From Candidatus Rokuibacteriota bacterium (GTDB taxonomy: Bacteria > Methylomirabilota > Methylomirabilia > Rokubacteriales > CSP1-6), in contig QHSI01000098.1 of the NCBI GenBank assembly GCA_003221515.1, positions 102,961-166,960 on the forward strand: a DNA stretch of 64,000 bases, in the 5' to 3' direction. Of this stretch, positions 7,532-29,401 are shown one piece after another. The notes under the pieces are model-generated. The model worked only from the letters and a program-made list of their open reading frames with translations. It ran no database searches and was not told the origin of the DNA. Both the position numbers and the translations under genes were made by a program. Position 1 is the stretch's first letter; each line of letters starts with the position of its first letter.

Positions 7532-7558
7532 TCCGCGGCCGCGCTCACTGGCCGATCT

Positions 7559-8610: not shown

Positions 8611-8639
8611 ACTATTGCCTCTGGACAAAGGCTTGTCAA
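8611..8639 (-). promoter_or_regulatory. Sigma70-type promoter of the FecR-domain gene
   Basis: Read on the minus strand: a perfect TTGACA (8639-8634), a 17-base spacer and AATAGT (8616-8611), giving a leader of about 70 bases before the ATG at 8536. A 6-bp dyad, GAATGA (8665-8670) and TCATTC (8679-8684), lies just upstream, between this promoter and the divergent cyclase gene, and is a possible operator. The 200-base divergent region is visibly AT-richer than its surroundings. Confidence 0.6.
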
Positions 8640-8736
8640 GTGCGTATCAAATCAGCGATTTCCTGAATGAGTGGATAGTCATTCGGCCGCCGCTTGGGGG
8701 TTTGCCCGGAATGCTAACGGTGGCGTAGAGTTGCGG

Positions 8737-10866: not shown

Positions 10867-10885
10867 CGGCGGCGCGCTGCGCCTC

Positions 10886-12288: not shown

Positions 12289-12335
12289 CGTCTCGACCCG
12301 CGCGAATCCTAGCACGAGGCGGGTAAGATGAGCGC

Positions 12336-14595: not shown

Positions 14596-14642
14596 CGGCT
14601 GGCAACGTATCACGGAGCGCGCGCAGCGTACAATGACGGCCC
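14596..14642. promoter_or_regulatory. Overlapping divergent promoters in a 47-base intergenic space
   Basis: On the plus strand TACAAT (14629-14634) stands 8 bases before the cupin ATG. On the minus strand TTGTAC (14633-14628), an 18-base spacer and TACGTT (14609-14604 region) face the protease gene. The two promoters share the GTACAA bases, so they should exclude one another. Both transcripts would be nearly leaderless. Confidence 0.4.
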
Positions 14643-15305
14643 ATGACGTCCAACGACACGTTGCGACTGTGCGAGGACGCGCTGCCCTCCGACGGCCGAC
14701 TCGCGCTGCCACCGCGCGCGCGTGTGATCTACGTGAAGCGCGGCGGCGTCGTGGTGGCGAGCGCGGGCCGCGACTCGCGCGTCGCGGAGGACCAGGCGTG
14801 GCACGGCGCCGTCGCGTGCTCGGTGACGGCCGGAAGCGGCGGCGCCACGCTGTGGCGGTGGGAGCTGATCCGCGGCGCCGGCGCGGCCGAGGACTCACAC
14901 GCCGGAACGACGCGGGTGTTGCTCGAGCACGCCATCGACCTCGACCAGGGCGGGGAATATCTGATGCGCGCCGACCGGGTGGACTTCGCGCCGGGCGGCG
15001 TCGCGCTGCCGCATCGCCACCGCGGCGGCGGCATCCGGTGCCTGGTCGCCGGCACGCTCGACGTCACGGTCGGCGACCGGCCGGCGCGACGGATCGCGCC
15101 CGGCGGCGCCTGGTTCGAGAGCGGCCGTGAGCCGGTGCTGGCGGTCGCGTCGAAGGACGACGCGACGAGCTTCATCCGCGTCGCGATCCTGCCGCGCGAG
15201 ATCCGCGGCCGGACGTCGATCATCTACGTGAACCCGAGCGACGCCGAGCGCGGACGCCCGCGCACGTACACGGTCTTCGTCGACGAGCCGATCGCGCTCG
15301 ACTGA
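14643..15305 (+). CDS. Cupin-fold protein of unknown function
   Basis: A 220-residue cytoplasmic protein with two cupin-like halves. The second is clearer: VALPHRHRGGGIRCLVAGTLDVTVGD supplies a His-rich metal-binding motif (HRHRGGG), followed by GGAWFESGREPVLAVAS. The first half (residues 50-110) lacks metal ligands. Bicupins of this kind bind small acids or act as sensors; no substrate can be named. crcB follows 30 bases downstream in the same direction, so they may be cotranscribed. Confidence 0.65.
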   Translation: MTSNDTLRLCEDALPSDGRLALPPRARVIYVKRGGVVVASAGRDSRVAEDQAWHGAVACSVTAGSGGATLWRWELIRGAGAAEDSHAGTTRVLLEHAIDLDQGGEYLMRADRVDFAPGGVALPHRHRGGGIRCLVAGTLDVTVGDRPARRIAPGGAWFESGREPVLAVASKDDATSFIRVAILPREIRGRTSIIYVNPSDAERGRPRTYTVFVDEPIALD

Positions 15306-15335
15306 TTCGACGGCGATTCGAGGAGGAGGAGGGAC

Positions 15336-15728
15336 GTGGTGGAGCGCTTCCTCTTGATCTGCGCCGGCGGCGCGATCGGCACCGGGCTCCGATATCTGAC
15401 CGCCGGGCTCGCCGCGCGCTGGCTCGGCGCCGACTTCCCCTACGGCACGCTGATCGTCAACGTCGTCGGCTCGTTCCTGATCGGCCTGATCCAGCAGGTC
15501 GGCTTGACGACGCTGCTCATCCCGGACACGGCGCGCCTGTTCTTGACGGTCGGCATCATGGGCGGGCTCACGACGTACTCGTCCTTCACCTACGAGACGC
15601 TGCGGCTGGTCGAGGGCGGCGCGTGGGGTCAGGCGTGGATCAACGTCCTGGTGACGACGGCGCTCTGCCTGGCGGTGTGCTTTCTCGGCATCGCGGCCGG
15701 GCGCCTGCTCGTCGAGGCACGGGTGTAG
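15336..15728 (+). CDS. crcB: Fluoride channel CrcB/Fluc
   Basis: A 130-residue four-helix membrane protein that exports fluoride as an antiparallel dimer. It shows the family motifs GGAIGTGLRYL, the FPYGTLIVNVVGSFLIGL stretch with the pore-lining Asn, and GGLTTYSSFTYET with the TTYSTF-like Phe/Thr track. Length is normal. A GGAGGAGGAGGGA stretch precedes the GTG start. No fluoride riboswitch is visible upstream. A damaged DUF190 gene follows directly; crcB-DUF190 is a common bacterial pair. Confidence 0.95.
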   Translation: MVERFLLICAGGAIGTGLRYLTAGLAARWLGADFPYGTLIVNVVGSFLIGLIQQVGLTTLLIPDTARLFLTVGIMGGLTTYSSFTYETLRLVEGGAWGQAWINVLVTTALCLAVCFLGIAAGRLLVEARV

Positions 15729-15730
15729 CG

Positions 15731-16032
15731 ATGAGAAAGATCGAAGGCGAGCAAGTCTCGATGCGCGTGTTTCTCGGCGAATCCGACCGCGCCGGCCACC
15801 GACCACTGTCCACAGCGCTGCTGGAGCTTTTCAAGGCCAGAGGCCTTGCCGGCGCGACCATCGTGGATCTGCCGTTGGTGATCGAGGTAGTGGACACGCA
15901 GGAGCACCTGGACGCGGTGCTCCCGGAGGTGGACCGCCTCATGCCGGGGGGCTGATCACGATGGAGAAAGTGCATGTCCTGCACTACGCTCCCAACGGCG
16001 CTGCTCAGCGGCCGCCCCAGCGCGCCTCCTGA
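15731..16032 (+). pseudogene. DUF190 family gene broken by an internal deletion and a frameshift
   Basis: The start (MRKIEGEQVSMRVFLGESDRAGHRPL) and the segment LLELFKARGLAGATI match DUF190, but the family's central RG.GFG....H...LSPDLP block is missing. Instead AGATI runs directly into VDLPLVIEVVD, a deletion of about 23-25 residues. The frame then stops at 15953 within six Gs (15946-15951). Shifting by one base restores the expected C-terminus LITMEKVHVLHY up to a stop at 16030-16032. Two independent lesions argue for decay, although a homopolymer error could explain the second. The family is of unknown function and often accompanies crcB. Confidence 0.75.
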
Positions 16033-16517
16033 TAAATGCGCCGCTGCGCGTCGGTCAGGAGGTCGCGCGTCTTGAGGTGCGTGAGGAGATGGACCAATCG
16101 GACCTCGCTCCGCGCGCGCTCGACCTCGGCGACCGCCGCCCGCACCGACGCCTCGCCGGCCACGCGGTCGGCGAAGAGGCGGCGCAGCCTGGCCTCCGCC
16201 TCGAGCAGGCGCGCGCTCTTGGGCTTCGACTCCGCGGACATCGCGTGCAGGAGCGCCCGCACTTTCGTCGCCTGGTCGGCGGTGAGGCCCAGAGGCTCTT
16301 GCAGCTCCAGCACGTGCAGCGGCCCAGGGTAGCCGTTCTGGTCGGCCGCGAACGCCAGGCCGAACCCTCGGCCGTCTCCGACCACCTTCTCGAACTCGGT
16401 CTCGCACGCCTGGGCGGCCTGATGGCCGCGCGATGGGCTCCCGTCGTGCGCGTGCTGGGCCCACGCCAACGACGCGACGAGCCCGATCGCGGCGAGCGTC
16501 ATGACCATGGTTCGCAT
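16005..16517 (-). CDS. Spy/CpxP-like periplasmic protein
   Basis: A 170-residue secreted helical protein. The signal peptide MRTMVMTLAAIGLVASLAWAQ is followed by His-rich residues (HAHDGSPSRGHQ) and an LTXXQ-like core: LQEPLGLTADQATKVRALLHAM, then VHLLTHLKTRDLLTDAQRRIYQ. Spy/CpxP and CnrX-type metal-sensor relatives share this fold, binding unfolded proteins or metal ions in the periplasm. Residues 43-70 are an insertion not typical of Spy. AAGGAGG precedes the ATG. Its 3' end overlaps the tail of the decayed DUF190 gene. Confidence 0.75.
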   Translation of the reverse strand: MRTMVMTLAAIGLVASLAWAQHAHDGSPSRGHQAAQACETEFEKVVGDGRGFGLAFAADQNGYPGPLHVLELQEPLGLTADQATKVRALLHAMSAESKPKSARLLEAEARLRRLFADRVAGEASVRAAVAEVERARSEVRLVHLLTHLKTRDLLTDAQRRIYQEARWGGR

Positions 16518-16607
16518 TCCGGGACCTCCTTCGATGTCTGACCAGCAGGGTGAGGCCGGCGCGGCGGGACGTCCGCCCCTGGACAGCCGGCGGCGCGTCC
16601 TGCCGTG

Positions 16608-19160
16608 CTAGGCGAAGCGCGCCAGGTATCGCGCGAGCGCGGCGGATTCGCGCTCGCGCAGGCGCACCGCGATGCGGAGCTGCTCGAGGTACTGCTCGAG
16701 CACCTTGCCGCCGAAGTCGACGTTCCGCCCGCGGAAGAACGCGTGCACGTCGCGCTCCTGCTCGGGCGAGGCCAGGCCGATCACACCCTCGGCCATGCGC
16801 CGGAGGCCGGCCTTGGGGTATTGCCGGTCCATGGTGTCCCAGTTCGACTTCACGAAGTCCCAGGCCAGCTCCCGCCCGTAGACCGACATCAAGAGCGACC
16901 GGGCCACGAACGGCGCGTCCTGGGTCCGGATCTCGCCGTTGATCGTGCGCTCGAGCGTCTGGGTCAAGAGCTCGCGCTGCCGAAACGCGGTCAGCGCGTA
17001 GAGATACCGCTGCTCCTCCTGCGGCGTGGACGCGGACTTGAACCGCTTCAGGAAGTCGTCATAGCGTGCCGCGTCGCCCGCGTGCGCCAGCACGCCGATG
17101 AGGGCTGGGAGCACGTTGGGATCGACGTCGCCCGCCGCGCGTGCGTAGAGCTCGGCGGCCCGGCCCTGGACGCCGCGGTCGTCGCCGAGCACGGCGAGGG
17201 CGCGCACCAGATCGCCGCGGAGCTGGCGCGTCAGCTCGTCCTCGCCGGGCCGAGCCGTCCAGCCCAACTCCGCGAACGCGGGGGCCACGCGATCGCGCAC
17301 GAGCGCGGCCAGCGGTGGGCGGCTCTTCCCCTCGATGATTCGATTCAACGTGCCGAACGAGGCGATCAGGATCGACCACACGTTGCGGTCGCGCTCGGCG
17401 CGGAAGCGCGCCGTCAGGTCGAGATAGTCGGTGAGCTGCATGAGGCCGGCGACCGTCACCGCCCACGCGTCATTGACAAGGTTGAAGCGCTCGATGGCGG
17501 CCAACGTGGGCAGCGTCTTCAGGAGACGCTCCAGTAGCTCGCCGCTGTAGCGCACGCGATAGAACCCGTGGCCACCCTCGTTGACGAGCACCGCCTCGAG
17601 GCGCTCGGGCGCCGCCAGCCGCGTCTCGCTCTGGGCCAAGAGCCGCCGCTCGCTCGCCGCGCGGCCGGAGGCGCTGATCCGCACCTGGACGGGCACCTGC
17701 CAGCGCTGCTCGGTCGCGGGCGCCGGCCCCGCGAGGGGCTCGGGCAGGTACGTGAAGCGCTGCTGGCTCAGCACGAGCTCGCCACCCTCGAGCCGCGCGC
17801 TCACGAGCGGGTACCCGGGTTTGAAGATCCAGCCGTCCATGACCTCGGGGATCGGCTGGCGCGCGGCGAGGCCGAGCGCGGCCCAGAGGTCGCCGGTGTC
17901 GGCGTTGGCGTAGGCGTGCTTCCCTAGATAATCGCGGACGCCGTCGCGGAACACTGTCGGCCCCAGGTATTGCTCGAGCATCCGGAGGACGGAGGCGCCC
18001 TTCTCGTAGGTCAGCACGTCGAACATCGCGTCGGCGTCCCGCGGCGCCCCGACATGGAACTCGATCGGCCGCGTCGAGTGGAGCCCGTCCACCGAGAGCG
18101 CCGCCGCGCGCGAGACGCCGAACGTCGTCCACCGCTGCCACTCCGGCTTCCACGCGTCGACCGCCAGAATCTCCATGAACGTGGCGAAGGCCTCGTTGAG
18201 CCAGATACCGTTCCACCACGTCATGGTCACCAGGTCGCCGAACCACATGTGGGCGTTCTCGTGGGCGACCACGTCGGCGACGCGCTCGAGCTCGGCGTGC
18301 GAGGCGGCGCGCTCGTCCACCAGCAGCGCGGTCTCCCGGAAGGTGATCGCGCCGAGGTTCTCCATCGCCCCGGCGGCGAAGTCCGGGATCGCGAGCAGAT
18401 CGAGCTTGTCGCTCGGGTAGGGCAGGCCGTAGTAGTCCTCGAAGAAGCGGAGCGAGGCGACCCCGATCTCGTGACCGAACGCGGCGAGCCGTCGCTTGCC
18501 CGGCACACACCAGACGCGCACGGGTGTTGGGCCGACGTGGACCGGGTCCGTCGCCTCCAGCTCGCCGACGACGAAGGCCACCAGGTAGGTGGACATCTTC
18601 ATCGTGTCGGCGAAGGTGACGGCCTTGCGGCGGCCCTCGACGCGCTCGGACGCCACCGCCGTATTCGACACGGCCGTGAGCGTCGAGTCGATCACCAGCG
18701 TCACCGCGAACACGGCCTTGAACGCCGGCTCGTCCCAGCACGGGAACGCGCGACGCGCGTCCGTCGCCTCGAACTGCGTGGCGGCCATGAGCCGCGTGAC
18801 GCCGCTCGGGTCCTTGTAGCTCGACCGGTAGAAGCCGCGCAGCTTGTCGTTCAGCGTTCCGGTGAAGGCCAGCCGGAGCCGCCAGCGCCCGGGCGCGAGC
18901 GGCGACGGAAACGTGATCCGGCAGCGTTCCGCCGCCTCGTCCACGACGGGCGTCCCGCGCCGGGAGTCGCCGCGCTCGTTCACGACCGTGGCATCGCCGA
19001 TCGCCAGCTCGACCGCGTTGAGGACGATCTCCGACGTCGCCTCCGCGACGTCGAGCGTGATCGTCTCGTCGCCCGTGAAGGTGAGCGTCGTCAGATCGGG
19101 TTCGAGCCGAAGCTCGTAGCGAATCGGTGTCACGTGCCTCGGCAACCGGTGCTGATCCAA
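16608..19160 (-). CDS. M1 family metallo-aminopeptidase
   Basis: An 850-residue zinc aminopeptidase removing N-terminal residues from peptides. The start is placed at TTG 19160 because GGAG lies 7 bases upstream and the product begins LDQHRLPRHVTPIRYELRLEPDL, the usual first motif of the family. Key motifs: substrate N-terminus-binding GAMENLGAITFRE, zinc site HENAHMWFGDLVTMTWWNGIWLNEAFATF (HEXXH plus Glu 18 residues on) and the Tyr in DVLTYEKGASVLRMLE. The C-terminal ERAP1-like helical domain (VNEGGHGFYRVRYSGELL onward) is complete. No signal peptide, so cytoplasmic. The gene is divergent from the multihaem cytochrome gene, with 83 bases between them. Confidence 0.95.
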   Translation of the reverse strand: MDQHRLPRHVTPIRYELRLEPDLTTLTFTGDETITLDVAEATSEIVLNAVELAIGDATVVNERGDSRRGTPVVDEAAERCRITFPSPLAPGRWRLRLAFTGTLNDKLRGFYRSSYKDPSGVTRLMAATQFEATDARRAFPCWDEPAFKAVFAVTLVIDSTLTAVSNTAVASERVEGRRKAVTFADTMKMSTYLVAFVVGELEATDPVHVGPTPVRVWCVPGKRRLAAFGHEIGVASLRFFEDYYGLPYPSDKLDLLAIPDFAAGAMENLGAITFRETALLVDERAASHAELERVADVVAHENAHMWFGDLVTMTWWNGIWLNEAFATFMEILAVDAWKPEWQRWTTFGVSRAAALSVDGLHSTRPIEFHVGAPRDADAMFDVLTYEKGASVLRMLEQYLGPTVFRDGVRDYLGKHAYANADTGDLWAALGLAARQPIPEVMDGWIFKPGYPLVSARLEGGELVLSQQRFTYLPEPLAGPAPATEQRWQVPVQVRISASGRAASERRLLAQSETRLAAPERLEAVLVNEGGHGFYRVRYSGELLERLLKTLPTLAAIERFNLVNDAWAVTVAGLMQLTDYLDLTARFRAERDRNVWSILIASFGTLNRIIEGKSRPPLAALVRDRVAPAFAELGWTARPGEDELTRQLRGDLVRALAVLGDDRGVQGRAAELYARAAGDVDPNVLPALIGVLAHAGDAARYDDFLKRFKSASTPQEEQRYLYALTAFRQRELLTQTLERTINGEIRTQDAPFVARSLLMSVYGRELAWDFVKSNWDTMDRQYPKAGLRRMAEGVIGLASPEQERDVHAFFRGRNVDFGGKVLEQYLEQLRIAVRLRERESAALARYLARFA

Positions 19161-19243
19161 GCAAGATCTCCGAAAGCGATCAGGATGACTGCGGGCCTTA
19201 CTGTACTCCAGGACTCCATCGGTCACGCTATCATGCGACGTCG

Positions 19244-20449
19244 ATGCGACCGCACCTTCGCGCGGCGTGCGCCGCCATGCTGATCGTGCTGCTCGGCGCC
19301 TCCGCCCTCGGCGCCGACGCGATCCAGGATTTCCTCCGGCGCCACTGGAGCCGACCGCTCGCGCCCCAGGGGCCGCCGCCCGCGCGGTACTCTCCGCTCG
19401 AAGCCTCGCTCCACCCGGACGCGTGCGGCTCCTGTCATCCCGCGCAGCTGGCCGACTGGCGCGAGAGCCTGCATGCCGCCGCGATGGGCCCGGGCGTCGC
19501 CGGACAGCTGATCGAGATGCGGGAGAGCGACCCGTCATCGGCGCTCTCGTGCTTCACCTGCCACGCGCCGCTCGCCGAGCAGGCGCCGATCGTCGCGCAG
19601 GGGAACACGGCGGTCGCCAACCCGGAGTACGACGCGGTGCTGGGCGGTCAGGGGCTGCCGTGCGCCGGCTGCCACGTGCGCCGTCACGAGCGCTTCGGCC
19701 CACCGCGGCGCGACGGCTCGCTGGCGAGCGGCGCCCCGCGCGAGACGCTGCCCCACGGCGGCGTCACCCGCACGCCGGCGTTCCTCAAGTCGGAGTTCTG
19801 CCGCGACTGTCACCAGTTCACATCCGACGGCTTTGCGCTGAACGGCAAGCTCCTCGAGAACACCTACAACGAATGGAAGGCGAGCCGCTTCGCGCGCGAG
19901 GGCGTGCAGTGCCAGGACTGCCACATGCCGGTGCGTCGCCATCGATGGCGCGGGATCCACGACGCGGAGATGGTGCGCTCCGGGCTCACGATCAGCGCGA
20001 AGGCGGATGCGCCACGCTATCAACCTGGCGACGTCGCGGTCGTCCGGCTGCGCGTGACCAGCACGCGCGTCGGCCACGCGTTTCCGACCTACGTCACGCC
20101 GCGAGTCGTCCTGAGCGCCGAGCTGGTGGACGGCGCCGGCCAATCGATTGCCGGCAGCCGCCAGGAGAAGATCATCGGTCGCGAGGTCGCCCTCGATCTC
20201 TCGCGCGAAGCGTTCGACACGCGGCTCGGGCCGGGCCGGAGCGCGACGCTCGAGTACCGGATCAAGGTGCCGGCGCGCGGAGCGCGCGCGCGCCTGGCCG
20301 TGGTCGTCGAGCCCGACGCCTTCTACGCCGCGTTCTTCGGGGTGCTGCTGCGGCAGGGCGCCGGGCGCGGCGAGGCGCAGATTCGACAGGCGCTCGACGC
20401 CGCGCGCCGCTCGCCCTTCACCGTGTTCGAGCGCGAGCTGCCGCTGTAG
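19244..20449 (+). CDS. Five-haem c-type cytochrome, cytochrome c-554-like
   Basis: A 401-residue periplasmic protein. The signal peptide AACAAMLIVLLGASALGA is followed by five CXXCH haem sites: CGSCH, CFTCH, CAGCH, CRDCH and CQDCH (residues about 63 to 228). The C-terminal ~170 residues are haem-free and beta-rich (YQPGDVAVVRLRVTSTRVGHAFPTYVTPRVVLSAEL). The N-terminal part resembles the cytochrome c-554/multihaem family that moves electrons from N or S compounds to the respiratory chain. The partner cannot be seen here. TATCAT lies 9 bases before the ATG, with no Shine-Dalgarno. Confidence 0.88.
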   Translation: MRPHLRAACAAMLIVLLGASALGADAIQDFLRRHWSRPLAPQGPPPARYSPLEASLHPDACGSCHPAQLADWRESLHAAAMGPGVAGQLIEMRESDPSSALSCFTCHAPLAEQAPIVAQGNTAVANPEYDAVLGGQGLPCAGCHVRRHERFGPPRRDGSLASGAPRETLPHGGVTRTPAFLKSEFCRDCHQFTSDGFALNGKLLENTYNEWKASRFAREGVQCQDCHMPVRRHRWRGIHDAEMVRSGLTISAKADAPRYQPGDVAVVRLRVTSTRVGHAFPTYVTPRVVLSAELVDGAGQSIAGSRQEKIIGREVALDLSREAFDTRLGPGRSATLEYRIKVPARGARARLAVVVEPDAFYAAFFGVLLRQGAGRGEAQIRQALDAARRSPFTVFERELPL

Positions 20450-20546: not shown

Positions 20547-22163
20547 CTACCAGCCGAGCGCGGCGCCGTCGGCGCGCGGATCGGAGCCGCCGGTCAGTCC
20601 GTCGGACTCGATTCTGATCACCTGCGCGTGGCCCATGAGGTCGCTCCATTCCTCGACGACCTCCACGTCGTGTCCGCGGGCTCGCAGTGACTCGGTGACG
20701 CCGTCGCCGAAGCGCGTCTCGAGCCGCAGCGCCCCGGTGGCCTCGCCCCACGTGCGCCCGTAGAGCCAACGGGGCGCCTCGACCGCCGCCTGCGGCCCGA
20801 GGCGCCGATCGAGGATGCGCGTGACCAGCGCCGCTTGCGTCTGCGGTTGGCCCTCGCCGCCCATCGTGCCGTAGACCAGGCGCGGACGCCCATCCACCAG
20901 ATACATGGACGGGATCAGCGTGTGGGCGGTCTGCTTGCGCGGCGCCAGGCGGTTCACGTGCGCGGGGTCCAGCGAGAAGGACGCGCCGCGGTTCTGCAAG
21001 AGGATCCCGGTGTCTCCGGCGATCACGCCCGAGCCGAACTCCCAATAGAGGCTCTGGATCAGGGACACCGCGTTGGCGTCCGCGTCGGCGGTGACGATCG
21101 CGATCGTGTCGCCGTCGAGCGCGGCGCCGGGCGCGGGTCGGGCCGCGCGTCGCGAGATCATCCGGCGTCGGTCGGCCAGGCGCGCCCCATCGAGGCAGTG
21201 CGCGACCGGCACCTCGACGAACGTCGGGTCGGCCAGGTAGCGATCACGATCCTCGAACGCGAGCTTCGTCGCCTCGACGACCAGATGCACGTAGTCGGCC
21301 TCGTCCAGCGCGGCGAGATCGAAGGCTTCGAGGAGCGACAGGATCGCGAGGGCCGCGAAGCCCTGCGTCGGCGGCGGAAAGCTCGCAGCCTCGCCGCCAC
21401 GATAGGAAACGCGCAGCGGCTCGACCCACTGGGCCCGGTGCGCCGCCAGGTCGTCGGGGGTCAGCGGGCTACCGGCGGCCGCCGCGCCCTGCGCGATCCG
21501 CCGGCCGAGCGCGCCGCGATAGAACGTCTCGGCGCCGCCGCGCGCGATCTCCTCCAGTGTCGCCGCGAGCTCCGACTGCACGAAGCGCTCTCGCGCCAGG
21601 AGCGCCGGATGATAGACCCGCCAGAGGGGGGCGCGCAGCTCGGCCGGCGCGGCGGCGCCGAACAGGTCGTCGGCGTCCGCGGTCTCGCGCCGCTGCCCCC
21701 GTGAGGGCGCGAAGCCGTCGCGGGCGCAGGTGATCCCGCTCGTGAAGAGCTCGGGCCATGCGATCGGCGACCCCAGCGCGTCGCGGCTCAGCGCGTGAGC
21801 TTCCGACCATCCCGACACGACGCCGGGGACCGTCAGCGCCGCCGCGCCGCCGCGTACCGGGATCGCGGCGCCGAAGCGCCGCCGGTAGGTCTCGAGGTCG
21901 GCGGCCGCCGCCGAGCGGCCGGCGGCGTTCAGCGCGCGCAGCGTGCCGCGCCGCCCGTCGTGGATCAGCCAGAAGCTGTCGCCCCCCACGCCGTTCATGT
22001 GCGGATAGACGACCGCGACGGTTGTCGCGGCGGCGATGGCGGCATCGACGGCGTTGCCGCCCTGCCGGAGGATCGCCACGCCCGCTTCGGCGGCCAGCGC
22101 GTGCGGCGCGGCGACGACCCCGCGCGGCCATCGGCGTTCGGCCCAGCGGGTGGTGGCGCTCAC
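20547..22163 (-). CDS. ggt: Gamma-glutamyltransferase family protein
   Basis: A 538-residue Ntn-hydrolase that cleaves or transfers gamma-glutamyl groups (glutathione and related). The large-subunit start MSATTRWAERRWPRGVVAAPHALAAEAG and GGNAVDAAIAAATTVAVVYPHMNGVGGD are standard. The autocatalytic processing site is the Thr in LDGDTIAIVTADADANAVSLIQS. Downstream, GSGVIAGDTGILLQNRGASFSLDP and YGTMGGEGQPQTQ are the expected small-subunit motifs. No signal peptide is visible, so this is a YwrD-like cytoplasmic member. A TATCAT hexamer lies exactly 6 bases before the GTG start, pointing to a leaderless message. Confidence 0.92.
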   Translation of the reverse strand: MSATTRWAERRWPRGVVAAPHALAAEAGVAILRQGGNAVDAAIAAATTVAVVYPHMNGVGGDSFWLIHDGRRGTLRALNAAGRSAAAADLETYRRRFGAAIPVRGGAAALTVPGVVSGWSEAHALSRDALGSPIAWPELFTSGITCARDGFAPSRGQRRETADADDLFGAAAPAELRAPLWRVYHPALLARERFVQSELAATLEEIARGGAETFYRGALGRRIAQGAAAAGSPLTPDDLAAHRAQWVEPLRVSYRGGEAASFPPPTQGFAALAILSLLEAFDLAALDEADYVHLVVEATKLAFEDRDRYLADPTFVEVPVAHCLDGARLADRRRMISRRAARPAPGAALDGDTIAIVTADADANAVSLIQSLYWEFGSGVIAGDTGILLQNRGASFSLDPAHVNRLAPRKQTAHTLIPSMYLVDGRPRLVYGTMGGEGQPQTQAALVTRILDRRLGPQAAVEAPRWLYGRTWGEATGALRLETRFGDGVTESLRARGHDVEVVEEWSDLMGHAQVIRIESDGLTGGSDPRADGAALGW

Positions 22164-22701
22164 GCGGCCATGATAGCGAGAGGACTCCGCCTACGCGGGC
22201 CTCGATTCGGAAGGAGCGGGCAGTTCGTTACCATCTGTTCCGAATTGTCCAACGGCCACGACGCCAATGCGACACCGCTCACCCGTCCAGCCTGATCTCA
22301 TCGCGAGTTGAGAATCGCGCGCCGGTGGCACCGCCCTTGCGTGTGACTCATGACGATGAGCGGCAAAGCGCGGGCGCTCGATGCTTTGAAGACTGCTCGG
22401 GCCAGGGTGATGCTGTTCTTTCTATCAGAGCCAGTGCGCCGGCTGATCGCCACGCTCATCTGAGTACTGCTGCTTCCTTTCCGGAGCATGGCCACCCGGC
22501 GACGTCGAGTCCCTCGACTCGCTAGCCGAGCTCGAGCAGACCGACCAGATCGCGCTCCGCGCCGGATCCCACCAGGAGAATGCGATCGCCGATCTTCAAG
22601 AATCGTTCGTCCAGCGCCAGCTCCCATGGCATGAGGACGCGACGGAATCACCGGAGCGATCGCCGAGGGAAGCGCGAGGGCCGCTCCCTTGATTTCATCC
22701 G
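22164..22701. other. 538-base intergenic region at the left edge of the lasso cluster
   Basis: This is the longest gap in the window and is AT-richer than its surroundings. It holds the ggt -10 element (TATCAT, 22175-22170 on the minus strand), a gene fragment at 22522-22632 and a doubtful 37-codon plus-strand frame (22350-22463). TTGATT at 22689-22694, 18 bases before AGATTC, is a weak candidate promoter for the lasso operon. The region may mark the boundary of an inserted cluster. Confidence 0.4.
22522..22632 (-). pseudogene. Short fragment resembling the end of an NAD-binding (TrkA/ion-channel-type) domain
   Basis: On the minus strand, ATG to TAG encodes 36 residues with a natural-looking sequence, LDERFLKIGDRILLVGSGAERDLVGLLELG. 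A KxGDRILLVGS stretch is typical of the regulatory domains that follow potassium channels. The frame is open only a few codons further upstream before a stop. It is most likely a remnant, not a gene. The family assignment is a guess from one motif. Confidence 0.3.
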
Positions 22702-22737
22702 GTGAATGTGAAAGATTCGGTGCGAGAAATGGCGCCG

Positions 22738-23031
22738 ATGAGCAGGCCCACCCTGGCGTCTCGAGTCACCCTCAACTCGGACATCGCATTCCGTGAGCTG
22801 GACGGCGAGCTGGTAATCCTCAACCTCGAGACCGGCATCTATTTCGGACTCGACCCGGTGGGTGCGCGGACCTGGACGCTCATCGAACACCACGGATCCC
22901 TCGGCGCGGTGTTGGAGGTGCTCTGCTCCGAATACGACGCCCCTCCTGCCGTGCTCGAGCGCGACCTGCTCGAGCTCGTCGACCAGCTGTGCGCGAAAGG
23001 ACTGACGCGTGTCGCCGCGAGCTCCGCGTAG
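22738..23031 (+). CDS. Lasso peptide leader-recognition protein B1 (PqqD-like RRE)
   Basis: A PqqD-fold RiPP recognition element that binds the precursor leader and hands it to the B2 protease. Typical features: SRVTLNSDIAFRELDGELVILNLETGIYFGLDPVGARTW and a C-terminal helix pair (LERDLLELVDQLCAKGLTRV). The ATG at 22738 gives a family-like N-terminus (MSRPTLASRV). A GTG at 22702 and an ATG at 22729 are alternatives, and none has a good ribosome-binding site. It overlaps the B2 gene by 23 bases, and split B1/B2 proteins are the rule in this class of cluster. First gene of the putative operon. Confidence 0.88.
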   Translation: MSRPTLASRVTLNSDIAFRELDGELVILNLETGIYFGLDPVGARTWTLIEHHGSLGAVLEVLCSEYDAPPAVLERDLLELVDQLCAKGLTRVAASSA

Positions 23032-23518
23032 CGCAGTCCTGGGGCGCGCGCTCCACCGCGCCGCGGCGCTTTCCCGAGACGACTGGGCCGTCTTCGCTCG
23101 TGCGCTGGGGCTCCTGTCGCTCGTGAGCCTCGGTCTCAAGGTCGCCGGGCTCCGGCGCACGCTCGCCCTGGTCGATTCGCGAGCCGAGGCGAGGCGTCGC
23201 TGCGCCGGCGTCGATCCTCGTGGCGCGACGCGCATCGCCTGGCTCGTGGAGATCGCCGCTCGCTGCTGCCTGCCACGGCCCACGTGTCTCACGAAGGCGC
23301 TCGTCGTCTTCTCGCTCCTCAAGCGCCGCGGGCTGCCGGCGGAAGTGGTTCTCGGGGTCACGAAGGCCCGAGGGCCGCTCGAGGGGCACGCCTGGGTTCA
23401 GCTCGGGGAGGGCGCCGTCGTCGGCGATCCGGAGCCCGTGAGGTACACCACGCTCTGCCGCATCCCCGCCTTGCCGCCCTCTCCCACGACCACCGCCGCG
23501 CCCGAGCGCGCGCCGTGA
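23009..23518 (+). CDS. Lasso peptide leader protease B2 (transglutaminase-like)
   Basis: A 169-residue cysteine protease of the lasso B2 family that removes the leader so the macrolactam can form. The catalytic Cys is Cys93 in PTCLTKALVVFSLLKRRGLPAEVVLGV, His is His127 in LEGHAWVQL, and the likely Asp is Asp140, 13 residues later. An N-terminal membrane-like helix (FARALGLLSLVSLGLKV) is usual for B2. It starts at GTG inside the B1 gene and its TGA overlaps the GTG of the cyclase gene, so B1-B2-C should be translated as a coupled unit. Confidence 0.92.
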   Translation: MSPRAPRSAVLGRALHRAAALSRDDWAVFARALGLLSLVSLGLKVAGLRRTLALVDSRAEARRRCAGVDPRGATRIAWLVEIAARCCLPRPTCLTKALVVFSLLKRRGLPAEVVLGVTKARGPLEGHAWVQLGEGAVVGDPEPVRYTTLCRIPALPPSPTTTAAPERAP

Positions 23519-25425
23519 GCGGTCTCGCCGGCGTGTACGGCCTCGACGGTCGTCCACTCGACCGCGCGCTGCTCAGGAGGATGACCGAGGCGGTCGCGCA
23601 CCGCGGCCCGGACGGCGAGGGCTTCTGGAGCGACGGGCCGATCGGCCTCGGGCATCGCAGCTCGCGCACGACGCCGGAGTCGTTGGATGAGAAGCAGCCG
23701 CTGCTCGACGAGAGCGGAACGCTGTGCCTCGTGCTCGACGGACGGGTCGACAACCGCGCGGAGCTTGCCGCATGGCTGCGAGCGGCCGGCGTCCATCTTC
23801 GAACCGACACCGACGCGGAGCTGGTGCTGCAGTCGTATGCCCTGTGGGTCGACGGCTGCGCCTCGCGGATCGTCGGCGATTTCGCGTTTGCGATCTGGGA
23901 TCGCCGGCGCCGCCGGCTCTTCTGCGCGCGGGACCCGCTGGGGATCCGGCCGTTTTACTACCGAGATGACGGACGGACCTTCATCTGGGGCTCGGAGCTG
24001 CGCCAGCTTCTCGATACCTTGCCGCTCGGCCCCGAGCCGAACGAAGGAGTCGTGGGCGAGTACCTGAGCAGTCGCCTGGTCGACATCCACGAGACCCTCT
24101 ACCGCGGCATCCTGCGTTTGCCGCCGGGCCACGCGCTGACCGTCGAGGAGGGTCGCGTTCGCACGACGCGCTACTTCGACGTGGATCCGCGCCGCGAGAT
24201 CCGGTATCGCTCCGACGGCGAGTACGCGGAGCACTTCCTCGAGATCTTCCGCGAGGCGGTGCGCTGTCGGCTCCGGAGCGTCACCCCCGTCGCCGTGTTC
24301 CTGAGCGGAGGGCTCGACTCCTCGTCGATCGTCGGCGTCGCCGCCCGGCTCGCTCGCGACGGGCACGTACCTGGAGGGGGATTCGAGGCGTACTCCCTCG
24401 ACTTCACGCAAGCCGAGGCGGACGAGAGGGGCTGGGTCGACGACGTCGCGAGGATGTGGAAATTGCCGGTGCGTCACGTGAGCGCCGACGACGCCGTCCC
24501 GCCCTCGCTGGCCGAGCAGGTCGCCGATCTTCGGGACTTTCCGGATCTCCCCAACACGCACCCCTGGGGACTCCTGCTTGCCGAGGCGCGTCGACGTGGC
24601 GCTCGCACCGCGCTCTGGGGCTACGGCGGTGACGAGTGGCTCACCGGCGACACTGCGCACTGCGCCGATCTGCTCCGCCGGATGCGTCTGGTCGCGCTCG
24701 CGCGTCGGGTCCAGGACGATATTCGCTCCTTGACTTCGCTGGGCGGCCCGCCAGTCGGCCTGGCAGATCCAATCAGATGGTCGGTGATGCCGCTGCTTCC
24801 GCGCCCGGCCAAACGGCTCGTGCGGCGCTTCCGACGCTGGGACGTCCCGGACTGGATCGCGCCCGACTTCGCCCGACGCGTCGGACTCCAGGAAAGGCTC
24901 GCGCCGGACGTCCCCACACCTCGGTTCCCGACGTTCGCCCAGCGCGCCATCCACCGCCAGCTGCAGAGCGGCTGGAGCGCGGCCGAGTACGAAATGGTGG
25001 ACCGGTTCGAGACGCGCCGGTCCATGGAGAGCCGGTTTCCCTTCAACGATCGGCGGCTCATCGAATTCGCCCTGGCGCTGCCCGAGGCGCAGCGCTGGCG
25101 AGGCACCGAGACGAAGTTCATCCTGCGCCAGGCGGCGGGGGATCTGCTTCCCTCCTCCATGGCACACCGGAAGACCAAAGGTGACTTCACGTACCTCTTC
25201 GCTGCGTCGCTCGAGCGCGAGGGCGTCGACGAGACGTTCGCCCGGCTCCGCCTGGAGGCCGACGGGTTCGTGCGCGGCGACCGGGTGCGGGAGATGTATC
25301 GGCGTTTCCGCGGCGGCGATCTCGGATGCCTGGGTATCCTCTGGATGATCCTCGCGACGGAGTGGTGGTATCGAACCATGTTTCCCGCGTCACGCGTGGC
25401 GCGGGCCGACGGGGAGACACGATGA
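23515..25425 (+). CDS. Lasso cyclase C (asparagine-synthetase-like macrolactam synthetase)
   Basis: A 636-residue AsnB homologue that adenylates the side-chain carboxylate of the acidic ring residue and closes it onto the new N-terminus. The start is GTG 23515, overlapping the B2 stop (GTGA). An upstream-extended frame exists but lies within B2. The product begins MSGLAGVYGLDG: the glutaminase nucleophile Cys2 of true asparagine synthetases is replaced by Ser, as expected if no glutamine hydrolysis is needed. The ATP-pyrophosphatase loop SGGLDSSS is at about 264-271. GYGGDEWLTGD and the C-terminal KTKGDFTY are also present. Its stop overlaps the ATG of the precursor gene. Confidence 0.93.
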   Translation: MSGLAGVYGLDGRPLDRALLRRMTEAVAHRGPDGEGFWSDGPIGLGHRSSRTTPESLDEKQPLLDESGTLCLVLDGRVDNRAELAAWLRAAGVHLRTDTDAELVLQSYALWVDGCASRIVGDFAFAIWDRRRRRLFCARDPLGIRPFYYRDDGRTFIWGSELRQLLDTLPLGPEPNEGVVGEYLSSRLVDIHETLYRGILRLPPGHALTVEEGRVRTTRYFDVDPRREIRYRSDGEYAEHFLEIFREAVRCRLRSVTPVAVFLSGGLDSSSIVGVAARLARDGHVPGGGFEAYSLDFTQAEADERGWVDDVARMWKLPVRHVSADDAVPPSLAEQVADLRDFPDLPNTHPWGLLLAEARRRGARTALWGYGGDEWLTGDTAHCADLLRRMRLVALARRVQDDIRSLTSLGGPPVGLADPIRWSVMPLLPRPAKRLVRRFRRWDVPDWIAPDFARRVGLQERLAPDVPTPRFPTFAQRAIHRQLQSGWSAAEYEMVDRFETRRSMESRFPFNDRRLIEFALALPEAQRWRGTETKFILRQAAGDLLPSSMAHRKTKGDFTYLFAASLEREGVDETFARLRLEADGFVRGDRVREMYRRFRGGDLGCLGILWMILATEWWYRTMFPASRVARADGETR

Positions 25426-25580
25426 ACGAGGAGCCGACTCCGGACGCGACGCTCGGACCTTCGAAGAAGCCCTACGCGAAGCCCCAATTGATCGAGTACG
25501 GACCCGTCGAGAAGCTGACGCACTCGGGCACGCAGAGCCTCGGCGACGCGGGCCCCATGATGATGCCGGGGTGCCTATGA
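25422..25580 (+). CDS. Lasso peptide precursor (52 aa)
   Basis: The ATG overlaps the cyclase stop (ATGA). The leader fits the RRE-binding pattern YxxPxLx3Gx5Tx exactly: Tyr18, Pro21, Leu23, Gly27, Thr33 (KKPYAKPQLIEYGPVEKLTH). With Thr at the -2 position, cleavage follows His34. The predicted 18-residue core is SGTQSLGDAGPMMMPGCL. Asp8 gives an eight-residue ring closed on Ser1 and a ten-residue tail. A start at Gly36 (seven-residue ring) is the only other sensible option. Odd points: Ser as first residue, a Met triplet where the steric plug should be, a lone Cys at position 17 and no Lys/Arg/Trp/Tyr/Phe in the core. Confidence 0.9.
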   Translation: MNEEPTPDATLGPSKKPYAKPQLIEYGPVEKLTHSGTQSLGDAGPMMMPGCL

Positions 25581-25618
25581 TGGAGCGCCGCGCCAGCATG
25601 CCAATGGCGTCGGTCTGA
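25577..25618 (+). other. 13-codon mini-ORF bridging precursor and methyltransferase genes
   Basis: ATG ATG GAG ... TGA encodes MMERRASMPMASV. Its first codon overlaps the precursor stop (ATGA) and its TGA overlaps the ATG of the methyltransferase (TGATG). A ribosome leaving the precursor could therefore walk through to the next gene. It may be a coupling device and not a functional peptide, or simply chance. Confidence 0.35.
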
Positions 25619-26778
25619 TGTCACTCGTCCTCGACGAGCATCGTCTGTACCTCGCTGACACGGCCCGGGTGTCCGCCTTCCGGCGGGCTATCGAGGAGGT
25701 CGTCACGCCCGGCGACGTGGTGCTGGACCTCGGTGCGGGCACCGGGATCCTCGGACTGATGGCCTGTCGCGCCGGCGCCAAGCGGGTCTATGCGGTCGAC
25801 GAGGGGCCGATCATCGGTCTGGCGCACGAGGTCGCCGCGGCCAACGGGTTCCAGGACCGGATCACCCACGTCAAGGGGCTCTCCACCCGAGTGGAGCTGC
25901 CGGAGCGAGTCGACGTGGTTCTCGCCGACCAGATCGGGCGGTTCGGATTCGAGTCAGGCATTCTCGAGTACTTCGGGGACGCTCGGGCGCGCTTCCTGAA
26001 GTCGGCCGGCGTCATGGTGCCGAGCGAGATCGGGCTCGTCGTGGCGCCGGTCGAGTGTCCCGACCTCTTCGGGCAGGTCGAGTTCTGGGGGCGGATGCCC
26101 GCTGGCTACGACTTCCGCCCGGCGCTCGCGATCGCCGCGAACACCGGTTACCCGGCCAGGTTCGACCCGGCTCACCTGCTCGGAGCTCCTGCGCGGGCCA
26201 TCTCGCTCACGCTCTCGACGGCGGCGCCGGCCGCCGCTCTGAGCTCCGAGGTTGTCCTCGTGGCAGAGCGGCCAGGGACCCTTCACGGGATCGGCGGCTG
26301 GTTCGACGCGAAGCTCTCACCGGGTGTCACACTCACCAACTCCCCGCTCGCGGCGCGGCCGATCCTCCGGAGACAGGTTTTCTTTCCGATTGCCCGCCCG
26401 GTCGCGCTCGACGAGCACGACCAGATCCGCGTAAGGCTGCGGATCCTCCCCGCCGCGGCGATCGTGACCTGGACCGTCGACGTCAAGGCCGGGCGCGACG
26501 GGCGCGGACCCGCCCCGGAGAGCAAGGGCCGGTTCGCGCATTCCACCTTCCAGGGCCTGCTCCTCTGCAAAGAAGACCTGGAGCGGACCGATCTCCACTT
26601 CGTGCCGCGACTGTCCCCTTGGGGCGAAGCGCGGCGGTCCGTTCTCGAGTTGTGCGATGGCCGGCGGGCCCTCGGCGAAATCGAGCGCGAGGTCCACGGT
26701 CGCCACCCAACCCTCTTCCGCTCGCATGCGGAAGCGGCCGCTTTCGTCACCGAGGTCGTCACGCGCTACGCGGTGTAG
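25618..26778 (+). CDS. PRMT-like methyltransferase with C-terminal PqqD-like domain
   Basis: A 386-residue SAM-dependent enzyme. Motif I VVLDLGAGTGILGLMACRAGAKRVYAVDEG (35-63) and the following region are clearly of the protein-arginine-methyltransferase fold. In the double-Glu loop the first Glu position reads Asp (ADQIGRFGFESG: Asp104, Glu112), and the THW loop is replaced by AHSTFQG. So arginine may not be the substrate. The last ~45 residues (SVLELCDGRRALGEIEREVHG ... AAAFVTEVVTRYAV) look like a PqqD-type RRE, which could dock this enzyme on the precursor leader. It sits directly after the precursor gene, so it is a probable lasso tailoring enzyme. The core has no Arg or Lys, leaving the methylated atom open. 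Confidence 0.8.
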   Translation: MSLVLDEHRLYLADTARVSAFRRAIEEVVTPGDVVLDLGAGTGILGLMACRAGAKRVYAVDEGPIIGLAHEVAAANGFQDRITHVKGLSTRVELPERVDVVLADQIGRFGFESGILEYFGDARARFLKSAGVMVPSEIGLVVAPVECPDLFGQVEFWGRMPAGYDFRPALAIAANTGYPARFDPAHLLGAPARAISLTLSTAAPAAALSSEVVLVAERPGTLHGIGGWFDAKLSPGVTLTNSPLAARPILRRQVFFPIARPVALDEHDQIRVRLRILPAAAIVTWTVDVKAGRDGRGPAPESKGRFAHSTFQGLLLCKEDLERTDLHFVPRLSPWGEARRSVLELCDGRRALGEIEREVHGRHPTLFRSHAEAAAFVTEVVTRYAV

Positions 26779-26784
26779 TTGGGC

Positions 26785-27732
26785 GTGGCCTCGTATTCCG
26801 CCTTTGGGCTTGTCGTCTCCAGTAACGTGCCGCTGCCGGGACTCCCTCGAGTCCCCGACGAGCCGCCCGATTGCGTGTTCGAATCGCGTCGCGGCCCGAT
26901 CAGCGAGCGTTCGACCGGTCGCCGCCATGCGCTTCGCCTGCCGAATGGCGCGATTTCTCTGGTCATCGGACGCTGCCGATCGGGATTCCTCGTTCGGTTT
27001 CCCGGTCTCGCCCTCTTCCTCGTGTCGCGCGCCGGAGACCGTGTGCGCGGTGCACCGTCGCGAGGCGCGCGCCCGGCGATCGTCGCGCATCTCTTCCTGT
27101 CCCAGGTGCTGCCTCTGGCGCTGAGCCGCCAGGGCCGGCTCGTCATGCACGCGAGCGCCGTGGCGACCCCGCACGGTGCCGTCGCGTTTCTCGGAGCCGC
27201 CGGCCAGGGAAAGTCGACGCTGAGCGCGAGCTTTGTGCGTCGATCGTTCCCCCTCCTCACGGACGATGCGCTCCTGCTCATCGAGAACGGGACGACGCTG
27301 ACGGGCGTGCCTAGCTACCCCGAGATTCGGCTGCAGCCCGACGTGCTGGCGGTGCTCGGGAACGGTGGCCTCGAGGTGCACGACGTCGAGCATCGGGCTG
27401 GCAAGAAGCGGCTCAGGCTCGATCGCGGATCACGGTTATTCAGTCGAGAGCCCGTGCCGGTTCGGCGCATCTACGTCCTTGGCTGCGCGGAGCCGTCCGC
27501 ACGCTCTGGTGCCGCGACCATCTCTGCGGTCACGCCGCGCGAGGCGTTCATCGAGCTCGTCAAGCACACCTATCGGCTGGATCTCGACGACCGAAGCCGT
27601 TTGCGCGACGAGTTTGACTCGATCGGCCGCATCGCGGCGCGCCCGGCTCTCGTCTACCGGCTTGCCGTCCCGCGCGATCTGTCGGAGTTACCCGCGGTCC
27701 ACGCGGTGATCCTGGATCATTGCGGCTCGTGA
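26785..27732 (+). CDS. HprK-like serine kinase associated with lasso peptide clusters
   Basis: A 315-residue protein of the HPr-kinase-like family that accompanies paeninodin-type lasso clusters, where such kinases phosphorylate the C-terminal Ser of the precursor. The start is GTG 26785 (MASYSAFGLVVSSNVPLPGL, a typical first motif); a TTG two codons earlier directly follows the methyltransferase stop. The conserved VMHASAV, Walker A GAAGQGKST and the LLTDDALLLI Asp pair are all present. Here the predicted core ends in Leu, with Ser/Thr only at 1, 3 and 5, so the phosphate acceptor is not obvious. Its stop overlaps the GTG of the next gene. Confidence 0.88.
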   Translation: MASYSAFGLVVSSNVPLPGLPRVPDEPPDCVFESRRGPISERSTGRRHALRLPNGAISLVIGRCRSGFLVRFPGLALFLVSRAGDRVRGAPSRGARPAIVAHLFLSQVLPLALSRQGRLVMHASAVATPHGAVAFLGAAGQGKSTLSASFVRRSFPLLTDDALLLIENGTTLTGVPSYPEIRLQPDVLAVLGNGGLEVHDVEHRAGKKRLRLDRGSRLFSREPVPVRRIYVLGCAEPSARSGAATISAVTPREAFIELVKHTYRLDLDDRSRLRDEFDSIGRIAARPALVYRLAVPRDLSELPAVHAVILDHCGS

Positions 27733-28892
27733 GGGGAGCGGGCCTGCCCTCGACGGATATCGCGCTGTCGCGCGAGACGCGCGTGCTCGTCGGCGCAGTC
27801 CGCTGGTTCGTCGGCGCCGCCACCGAGGACGATCTCGTCGGGCTGCTCGGCGGCGGCGGCCTGGACTGGTCCAGGCTCTTCGAGCAGGCGGAGCGAGAGG
27901 GGATCACTGGAATCGTCGCCCGAGCCCTCGATAGCCTTTCGCCGCGTGAGGGTTTGGCCCTGCCCCTCGATCGCTGGCGTGCCGCGACGCGGGCCGTCGC
28001 CGTCAGCAACATGACGTCGCTGTCCGAGCTGGCGGCGCTCCGAGCGATGCTGCGCCGGGGCCACCGCCCGATGATTTTGTTGAAGGGCGCGGCCCTGCTC
28101 GACGACGAGTATCGAGGGCATCTGGGCCTGCGACCCCTGGGCGATATCGATCTGCTGTTGCGCCCATCGGACCTGCCTGCGGTCACCGGATGGCTGCGGG
28201 ACCGGGGCTACAAACCCGTCTCGTCGTCATCCCCGTTCTTCTCCCGAGGCGTGGTCTCGTTCGACCTCCACACGGAGATCGTCGGGAGCGAGTGGGTCGG
28301 CCTCAAAGGGCGCGCCTTTCGCCTGGATCCTGCGGCCCTCTGGCGCGAAGCCATACGACTCGAGCCACACGATCCGACTACGCTCGTCCTCTCGCGTGTC
28401 CACCTGCGGCTCCACCTGGCCGTGCACGCCCTCAAGCACTCGTACTCCCGTTTGATCTGGCTGGTCGACCTTGCGCTCGTGCTGCGAGACGCCCCCTGGG
28501 CGTCTCTGCTGGGGGAGGCTCGAGCCGCAGGGGCCATGCGACCGCTCGCCTACGCCGTCTCCGCCCTCGACACGCTGCTGGGTCGTCTGGAGATGCCGGA
28601 CGCAGTGCGCGGAGAGCTGCCAGCCCTCAGCGCGCTCGAGCGGGCGTTCATCCGCCTCGTCGCGAGTCGGAGGGGGATGGAGACTCCTGGTGAGCTGTTG
28701 GTGGCGTTCTCGATCCCGGGCGCGATCGGGAAGGCCGCGTACCTGGCGGAGCTCGTCTTCCCCAAGCGACCAGTCCTGGCGCGCCACTACCCCATGACTC
28801 CGTCGTGGCTTCTCTATCCGCGCCGCGTGCTACGCCTAGTGAGCCTCAGCCTTCAGGAGGGCACGAAGCTCTGGCACCGGCGCGGAGGGTGA
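27729..28892 (+). CDS. NTP_transf_5-type nucleotidyltransferase of the lasso cluster
   Basis: A 387-residue member of the nucleotidyltransferase family 5 (PF14907-like) that recurs in kinase-containing lasso clusters. The catalytic fold is seen in ILLKGAALLDDEYRGHLGLRPLGDIDLLLRPSD, with the GDIDLL acidic pair. The rest is helical, with FDLHTEIVGSEWVGLKGRAF and LAVHALKHSYSRLIWLVDLALVL. It may transfer a nucleotide to the peptide or to the phosphate added by the kinase; its role is not established. The start is taken at GTG 27729, which overlaps the kinase stop (GTGA); a TTG three codons upstream is the alternative. Last gene of the cluster; no ABC exporter follows. Confidence 0.85.
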   Translation: MRGAGLPSTDIALSRETRVLVGAVRWFVGAATEDDLVGLLGGGGLDWSRLFEQAEREGITGIVARALDSLSPREGLALPLDRWRAATRAVAVSNMTSLSELAALRAMLRRGHRPMILLKGAALLDDEYRGHLGLRPLGDIDLLLRPSDLPAVTGWLRDRGYKPVSSSSPFFSRGVVSFDLHTEIVGSEWVGLKGRAFRLDPAALWREAIRLEPHDPTTLVLSRVHLRLHLAVHALKHSYSRLIWLVDLALVLRDAPWASLLGEARAAGAMRPLAYAVSALDTLLGRLEMPDAVRGELPALSALERAFIRLVASRRGMETPGELLVAFSIPGAIGKAAYLAELVFPKRPVLARHYPMTPSWLLYPRRVLRLVSLSLQEGTKLWHRRGG

Positions 28893-28903
28893 TCCGGGCC
28901 GCC

Positions 28904-29401
28904 ATGCAGTGGCTCGTCGACGGCTACAACGTGATCCGGCGCGATCCCGACCTGCGCGCCCGCGAGGCCGAGAGCCTCGAGGCCGGTCGAAAGGCGTTGC
29001 TCCACCTGCTGGCGCAGGCGCGCGGCGCGGCCGGCGACCAGTTCACGGTCGTCTTCGACGGCGCGCGAGTCTCGGGCGGGAACCCGTCGGAGGGACGGAT
29101 CCGAACGATCTTTTCCCGGCCGCCGCGCACGGCGGACGACGAGCTGATGCGCCTGGCCCGGCAATGGCGCGAGGGCGGGGTGGTCGTGAGCTCCGACCGC
29201 AAGATCCAGGACGCGGCCCGCCGCGCGGGATGTCCGGTGCTGACCGCGGAGCAGTTTCTGGATGGGCTGACCGCGTCCTCGGACGACGAACGCGAGCAGC
29301 CCGAGGACGATCGTCCCCGCGAAAAACGAGGCAATCCGCGCCGCCTTTCGCGAGAGGCGCGGGCCGCTCAGCGCGCGCTCCGTCGCCTACGTGAACCTTG
29401 A
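28904..29401 (+). CDS. NYN-domain (YacP/Rae1-like) ribonuclease
   Basis: A 165-residue PIN-like nuclease. It begins MQWLVDGYNVIRRDPDLR with the family's first catalytic Asp, continues with FTVVFDGARVSGG, then ADDELMRLARQWREGGVVVSSDRKIQDAARRAG with the remaining acidic residues. The C-terminal tail is Glu/Arg-rich. YacP/Rae1 relatives cut mRNA at the ribosome. A GTG at 28889 overlapping the upstream stop would add five residues; ATG 28904 is preferred because family members begin with the LVDGYN strand. It may be read through from the lasso operon but is more likely a resident housekeeping gene. Confidence 0.85.
   Translation: MQWLVDGYNVIRRDPDLRAREAESLEAGRKALLHLLAQARGAAGDQFTVVFDGARVSGGNPSEGRIRTIFSRPPRTADDELMRLARQWREGGVVVSSDRKIQDAARRAGCPVLTAEQFLDGLTASSDDEREQPEDDRPREKRGNPRRLSREARAAQRALRRLREP

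Follow-up and report, generated by a model that had tools for sequence, protein, structure and literature searches.

Here, we examine seven genes in a 64,000-nucleotide stretch of contig QHSI01000098.1 from a Candidatus Rokuibacteriota bacterium of soil (Rokubacteria, phylum Methylomirabilota; the window), which, judged from their sequences, form a lasso-peptide cluster in the order B1-B2-C-precursor (A)-MT-K-N. MT is a methyltransferase with the fold of protein arginine methyltransferases (PRMTs), K an HprK-like kinase and N an NTP_transf_5 nucleotidyltransferase. The interest of this cluster is MT and the portable K-MT-N trio, rather than the analogy to paeninodin-type clusters that a first-pass annotation of this DNA had drawn. 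MT looks like a PRMT-fold enzyme that methylates something other than arginine, and the best explanation of the whole, which we consider reasonably probable, is a lasso pathway in which MT, linked to K and N, acts on the same precursor. MT would thus add an apparently undescribed type of tailoring enzyme to lasso peptides.

A PRMT fold without its arginine-binding motifs

A profile of nine homologues of MT (METHYLTRANSFERASE) matches PRMT6 at 2e-59 over residues 5-275, PRMT_C matches in 9/9 homologues, and both the Rossmann domain and the PRMT barrel are present (approximately residues 5-280). The double-E and THW loops of PRMTs serve arginine binding. In MT, Asp104 stands where the first double-E glutamate has been lost, Glu112 is the second double-E residue, and ILR takes the place of THW; neither these loops in their PRMT form nor an arginine in the expected substrate is found, with 0 Arg among the 52 residues of the precursor. 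Every lasso-linked MT lacks THW and the first double-E glutamate. These MTs fall into two clades, each strongly supported (100/100 and 100/99), the second of which has lost the second glutamate as well. The glutamates and THW are mostly retained in the MTs linked to radical S-adenosylmethionine (radical-SAM) genes (L049, L052, L104). A related lasso cluster (L161, G045) holds an internally deleted MT, with a 125-residue remnant that resembles the second lasso clade.

Methyltransferases of the kinds described from other lasso clusters are not indicated. MT (P0005) has no PCMT match and core residue 6 of the precursor is Leu rather than Asp, unlike the lihuanodin type with its protein isoaspartyl methyltransferase (PIMT) homologue, and MT has no Pfam match to an O-methyltransferase resembling mitomycin-7-O-methyltransferase, as in the lassomycin type. 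Methylation of a precursor arginine was ruled out, as the precursor has none. The first-pass annotation had called the tailoring set rare, and this holds. In the literature searched, which included few subscription papers, we found no lasso cluster described as having a PRMT-like enzyme.

The last 60 residues of MT (~330-386) resemble the helical half of PqqD, the fold of the stand-alone RiPP recognition element (RRE) B1, where RiPP denotes a ribosomally synthesized and post-translationally modified peptide. In profile-profile comparison, this C-terminus matches the profile of the collected B1 sequences (E 3.9e-6, probability 87%), with K, N, B2 and C as controls at 0.4-0.84. Pfam PqqD matches the same part in three homologues (2e-4 to 0.035), and AlphaFold predicts three confident helices for the C-terminal piece. 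We regard this domain as probably PqqD/RRE-like, and probably peptide-binding. The first-pass annotation had noted neither this domain nor the lost PRMT motifs, nor that the precursor lacks Arg and a C-terminal Ser.

Co-occurrence of the fused methyltransferase with K and N

We next consider the distribution of this fused MT in a sample of 388 genomes that reaches far beyond the phylum, with loci counted by uniform profile criteria. K and N lie within ~7 kb of the fused MT in 17/17 complete loci (one N match, in L109, is weak at 25 bits), whereas both are present at 0/9 loci with an unfused PRMT, two of which have K alone (L111, L145). The Fisher p-value for this difference, 3e-7, is optimistic, as close relatives were counted separately, and scores against the K and N profiles are not independent, since the collected loci behind these profiles include those tested; the loci themselves were chosen by MT only. 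Conversely, K and N occur at 15 sampled loci where MT is absent. Because the fused MT in this sample always occurs with K and N, yet K and N often occur without it, MT appears to be an accessory of a K-N module.

The contexts of the fused MT are diverse and include lasso clusters, radical-SAM loci (L049, L052, L104) and loci with small peptides bearing a twin-arginine translocation (TAT) signal (L070, L071, L105, L107). On this basis, we tentatively entertain, as somewhat short of an even prospect, that K, the PRMT-fold/RRE-fusion MT and N are a portable trio by which several unrelated ribosomal peptides (lasso, radical-SAM and TAT-exported) receive a methylated phospho-conjugate, the PRMT fold having evolved in this case to use a methyl acceptor other than arginine.

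The small open reading frames with a twin-arginine-like signal (L070 11061-11285, L071 9046-9282, L105 13210-13380 and L107 8977-9207; e.g., ...MAMGMTWSPGCSLLN) adjoin an HprK-like kinase, the fused PRMT and NTP_transf_5 at loci with no lasso genes, and may be what the trio modifies in other lineages. Metallo-beta-lactamase genes resembling N-acyl homoserine lactone lactonases (L049 5748-6683, L052 8367-9161) lie close to the fused PRMT where it occurs with radical-SAM genes. Two RiPP systems apparently adjoin each other at locus L108 (G244, 6500-19500), which has B2, radical SAM and N besides the fused MT, and a pair each of K, C and B1. At L170, L174, L183 and L145 (also L171 and L177), B2-type peptidases and B1 stand by K and radical SAM with no C cyclase, so the NCBIfam 'lasso B2' model marks radical-SAM cassettes too.

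The lasso genes and the precursor

The seven genes, all on the + strand at 22738-28892 of the window, are recovered by family profiles at the places and in the order given by the first-pass annotation (Table 1). The genes are closely packed, but the description of 4-base overlaps at most junctions does not stand: such overlaps occur at only 2/6 (B2/C and C/precursor), while B1/B2 overlap by 23 bases, K/N by 13, and the precursor and MT are separated by 37 bases and MT and K by 0. B1, B2 and C are adjacent, as in lasso clusters. The nearest solved relative of B1 is the lasso B1 protein TbiB1 (5e-14), and its orthologues are 76-79% identical, one of them beginning near the same ATG. B2 carries the expected Cys93, His127 and Asp140, and C carries the ATP-binding motif SGGLDSS and scores 453 bits against NF033535, under the cut-off of 525.

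The precursor is divided into a leader (residues 1-34, MNEEPTPDATLGPSKKPYAKPQLIEYGPVEKLTH) and an 18-residue core (residues 35-52, SGTQSLGDAGPMMMPGCL). The leader has the lasso pattern YxxPxL at -17 to -12 (Y18 = -17, P21 = -14, L23 = -12) followed by Thr at -2 (T33), and the core has an acidic residue in the range 7-9 (S35 = +1, T37 = +3, D42 = +8). Reported precursor rules place Tyr at -17 and Thr at -2 (PMC10368454); these are independent and both set Ser35 as residue 1, making Asp42 core residue 8 and the predicted ring Ser1–Asp8. Kept across the congeners are Ser/Thr1, Gly2, Thr3 and Gly7-Asp8-Ala-Gly-Pro-Met-Met, and all five genomes in this genus have the Thr that is Thr37 in the window. 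The precursor ends in Cys-Leu, not Ser, and no orthologue ends in Ser.

Table 1. Features of the cluster and its flanks (positions in the window)
Feature	Position	Strand	Assignment and evidence
Gamma-glutamyltranspeptidase, flanking gene	20547-22163	-	cluster fills the gap from here to NYN_YacP
Stretch missing from empty sites of G017 and G019	22177-28903		blastn of flanks to L195, L196
Beta-propeller gene remnant	22356-22469	+	~35 codons then stop; tblastn 6.9e-8, 66% identity over 38 positions
B1	22738-23031	+	stand-alone leader-binding RRE, PqqD fold; PF05402 1.3e-16
B2	23009-23518	+	transglutaminase-like leader peptidase; NF033537 80.5 bits (cut-off 33), PF13471 3e-21
C	23515-25425	+	macrolactam synthetase, GATase_7 + Asn_synthase; PF00733 1.3e-48, PF13537 2.9e-31
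A, precursor, 52 aa	25422-25580	+	NF033521 19.1 bits (cut-off 19)
MT	25618-26778	+	PRMT-fold methyltransferase; profile match to PRMT6 2e-59
K	26779-27732	+	HprK-like peptide kinase, TTG start; TIGR04352 5.5e-8, under cut-off
N	27720-28892	+	NTP_transf_5 nucleotidyltransferase; PF14907 1.4e-39
NYN_YacP gene, flanking	28883-29401	+

Conservation of the cluster

The order B1-B2-C-A-MT-K-N, which the first-pass annotation had proposed to look for in relatives, recurs in four genomes of the same genus (G020, G018, G013, G014), although in G013, G014 and G018 the set is split across two contigs, with MT reaching the contig end in G013 and G014. In another genus (G021), the order is B1-B2-A-C-MT-K with N upstream, and in a high-quality genome of another family (G090), it is B1-B2 (twice)-C-A-MT-K-ATP-binding cassette (ABC) ATPase-ABC permease-N. 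The annotation reported no exporter nearby, which is true of the genes flanking the cluster (an oligopeptide-type permease pair, read from sequence only, lies at 39.3-41.9 kb, >10 kb away); as an exporter stands inside the G090 set, its absence here is a local feature.

Ratios of nonsynonymous to synonymous substitution (dN/dS) are 0.21 for MT, 0.21 for C, 0.29 for the precursor, 0.39 for K and 0.67 for B2, indicating that C, the precursor and MT are under purifying selection. Because the gene order is kept in four congeners and dN/dS is 0.21-0.29 for these three genes, the order is not due to chance. The annotation had also named an outcome that would speak against the set, namely close B1/B2/C homologues always accompanied by another precursor; we instead observe the same precursor family in seven genomes from three lineages.

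Other lasso clusters in the phylum have different precursors and no MT. The lasso clusters L152 and L153 (G015, G018) have K, N and precursors with a C-terminal Ser (...ISNAS, ...ITNVS) and lack MT, such that G018 holds both this kind and the kind found in the window. The lasso clusters L155, L158, L159 and L163, also from this phylum, have two C genes and precursor tails rich in Lys, Thr and Ser. No second lasso cluster was found in the genome of the window, where the other Asn_synthase genes inspected lack B1/B2 and a single B2 was found. Among the matches inspected in a plasmid collection, none is a lasso cluster with this MT, and PRMT-like genes there occur in other contexts. Promoter, terminator and Rfam scans of the window gave nothing informative.

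The kinase and nucleotidyltransferase

Paeninodin-type HprK-like kinases carry a His-Lys-Asp-Asp motif (PMC9266682), found in K as H124, K145, D162 and D163. This part of the paeninodin analogy stands, while the C-terminal Ser acceptor that it implies is absent; phosphorylation of such a Ser was ruled out accordingly. The full motif of K, H124-G139-G142-G144-K145-S146-D162-D163, has key residues that are invariant in 8 homologues, and corresponds to that of BsfK, H148-G163-G166-G168-K169-S170-D186-D187 (PMC10368454). BsfK phosphorylates core Ser3 and accepts Thr3 in a precursor with no C-terminal Ser, and its cluster includes an N gene (PMC10368454). By sequence, bsf is a better precedent than paeninodin for the cluster in the window. 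The nucleotide mark suggested by the first-pass annotation is one option only: PsmN adds a hexose to phosphoserine, although nucleotidylation with later glycosylation by the host may account for this (PMC9266682), and by analogy N is possibly a phospho-glycosyltransferase that adds a hexose.

Proposed pathway and alternatives

Sequence shows the gene set with its motifs and conservation, the co-occurrence and the loss of PRMT motifs, whereas the size of the ring, the phosphorylation of Thr3, the transfer of a glycosyl group, the timing and the methyl acceptor are inferred, as follows. B1 would bind the leader via Y18, P21 and L23, and B2 would cleave after His34. C would close the ring between the Ser35 amino group and the Asp42 side chain. 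The resulting lasso of 18 residues would have a presumed 8-residue ring and a predicted unmodified mass of 1733.72 Da. Before folding, K would phosphorylate a hydroxyl of the core, most likely that of Thr37 (core position 3), and N may attach a sugar or nucleotidyl group to this phosphate. MT, its PRMT fold repurposed for an acceptor other than arginine and its own PqqD-like domain probably acting as a guide, would methylate the same precursor. Since MT looks like an add-on to a portable K-N module, it most likely acts on, or together with, the group that K and N install, and the asymmetry of co-occurrence, in which the fused MT is always found with K and N but not the reverse, suggests an acceptor that these two make or expose.

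Several observations weigh against this pathway. No product is known. In G021, core residue 3 is Ala, which has no hydroxyl, and the kinase lacks an internal stretch. The C-terminal domain of the MT in the window has no Pfam PqqD match of its own (matches being confined to the three homologues), its Foldseek search returned nothing significant (PqqD 3g2b at rank 5, E 2), and the AlphaFold prediction of the whole MT was unsuccessful (pLDDT 43). Finally, the end of the precursor points to a target in the tail instead.

A tail target would mean that MT acts on the Met/Cys-rich end of the peptide independently of K and N, by S-methylation of Cys51 or as a methyl ester on the C-terminal carboxylate, the latter being known in lassomycin-type peptides (PMC9266682). 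A penultimate Cys (Cys-Leu or Cys-Ile end) is found in 6/7 precursors of this MT clade versus 0/17 other sampled lasso precursors (p 5e-5), an association possibly inflated by relatedness, as the seven genomes amount to ~three lineages. However, the G014 precursor, which may be truncated, ends in MMMP with no Cys while its MT gene seems intact except for the contig break (a mild argument), and in the second lasso MT clade the precursor tails read KTA, KSG or VVM. Moreover, a tail target leaves unexplained why fused MTs never lack K and N, and we regard it as the less likely site of methylation, if a serious candidate.

It is far less plausible that MT is a true arginine methyltransferase that modifies a partner protein or, in self-protection, a target of the producer itself rather than the peptide. 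Both the PRMT fold (2e-59, including the C-terminal barrel) and the lack of Arg in the precursor would fit, but all lasso-linked members are without the first double-E glutamate and THW, the MT gene directly follows that of the precursor, and the probable RRE-like domain suggests leader binding. Most doubtful of all is a silent or decayed cluster, or an MT that is an inert passenger, as the MT deletion in L161 and the possibly truncated G014 precursor might hint, given that all seven frames are intact in the window and congeners and dN/dS is 0.21 for MT and C.

Under the preferred pathway, in which MT acts with K and N on the precursor, the arginine site of a PRMT fold can be lost and a probable peptide-recognition domain gained, and MT suggests that bacterial peptides carry a chemical mark not yet described. 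MT also becomes linked to a kinase/nucleotidyltransferase pair with a final chemistry that is unsettled even in the best-studied case, PsmN. The tiny precursor and its predictable masses make the additions by N and MT answerable by experiment.

A genomic site with exchangeable cassettes

The cluster lies between a gamma-glutamyltranspeptidase gene and an NYN_YacP gene (Table 1). In two congeners, G017 and G019, this site is empty, with the flanks ~50-300 bases apart, and in G015 (L194, G015:C60, 1-12000), it holds B1, a beta-propeller gene, K, a radical-SAM gene and N. The beta-propeller remnant in the window corresponds to the first codons of the gene from this G015 cassette. In G030 (L052), K, a B1-like gene, radical SAM, N and MT adjoin the same glutamyltranspeptidase. 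From these filled, empty and differently filled sites, the lasso cluster behaves as one replaceable unit and the glutamyltranspeptidase/NYN site, by sequence comparison, is a place where RiPP cassettes replace each other.

Comparison with known systems

The closest precedent, the bsf cluster of Bradymonas sediminis (BsfA/B1/B2/C/D/K/N; PMC10368454), shares B1, B2, C, a nucleotidyltransferase gene and the lack of a C-terminal Ser with the cluster in the window, as well as the eight-residue HprK-like kinase motif with its spacing, a hydroxyl at core position 3 (Thr37 where Ser/Thr is expected) and Asp at position 8. It differs in having an ABC transporter, no reported methyltransferase, and Ile at leader position -2 (where Ile/Val is the rule) rather than Thr33. 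Paeninodin and pseudomycoidin (PadeK; PsmK and PsmN) share the HprK-like kinase, and pseudomycoidin also a hexose-adding nucleotidyltransferase, but their phosphorylated C-terminal Ser is absent in the window and neither, as described, has a PRMT-like gene.

Methyltransferases are also found in lassomycin-type clusters (LasF, StspM) and in those of lihuanodin and cellulonodin-2 (PIMT homologues), but these enzymes have other folds and target the C-terminal carboxylate or ring Asp6, whereas the MT in the window has a PRMT barrel. With Class I PRMTs (PRMT6 being nearest by profile), MT shares the Rossmann domain and this barrel, but its first double-E residue is Asp, THW is lost, it starts after the usual N-terminal helix, and it has the probable extra PqqD-like domain. 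Finally, RiPP cassettes of the HPr-rel-A-like and SynChlorMet-like kinds share the HprK-like kinase, a PqqD protein and NTP_transf_5, and some (L070, L071, L049, L052, L104) contain the same fused MT, with a radical SAM or a small TAT peptide replacing B2/C and the lasso precursor.

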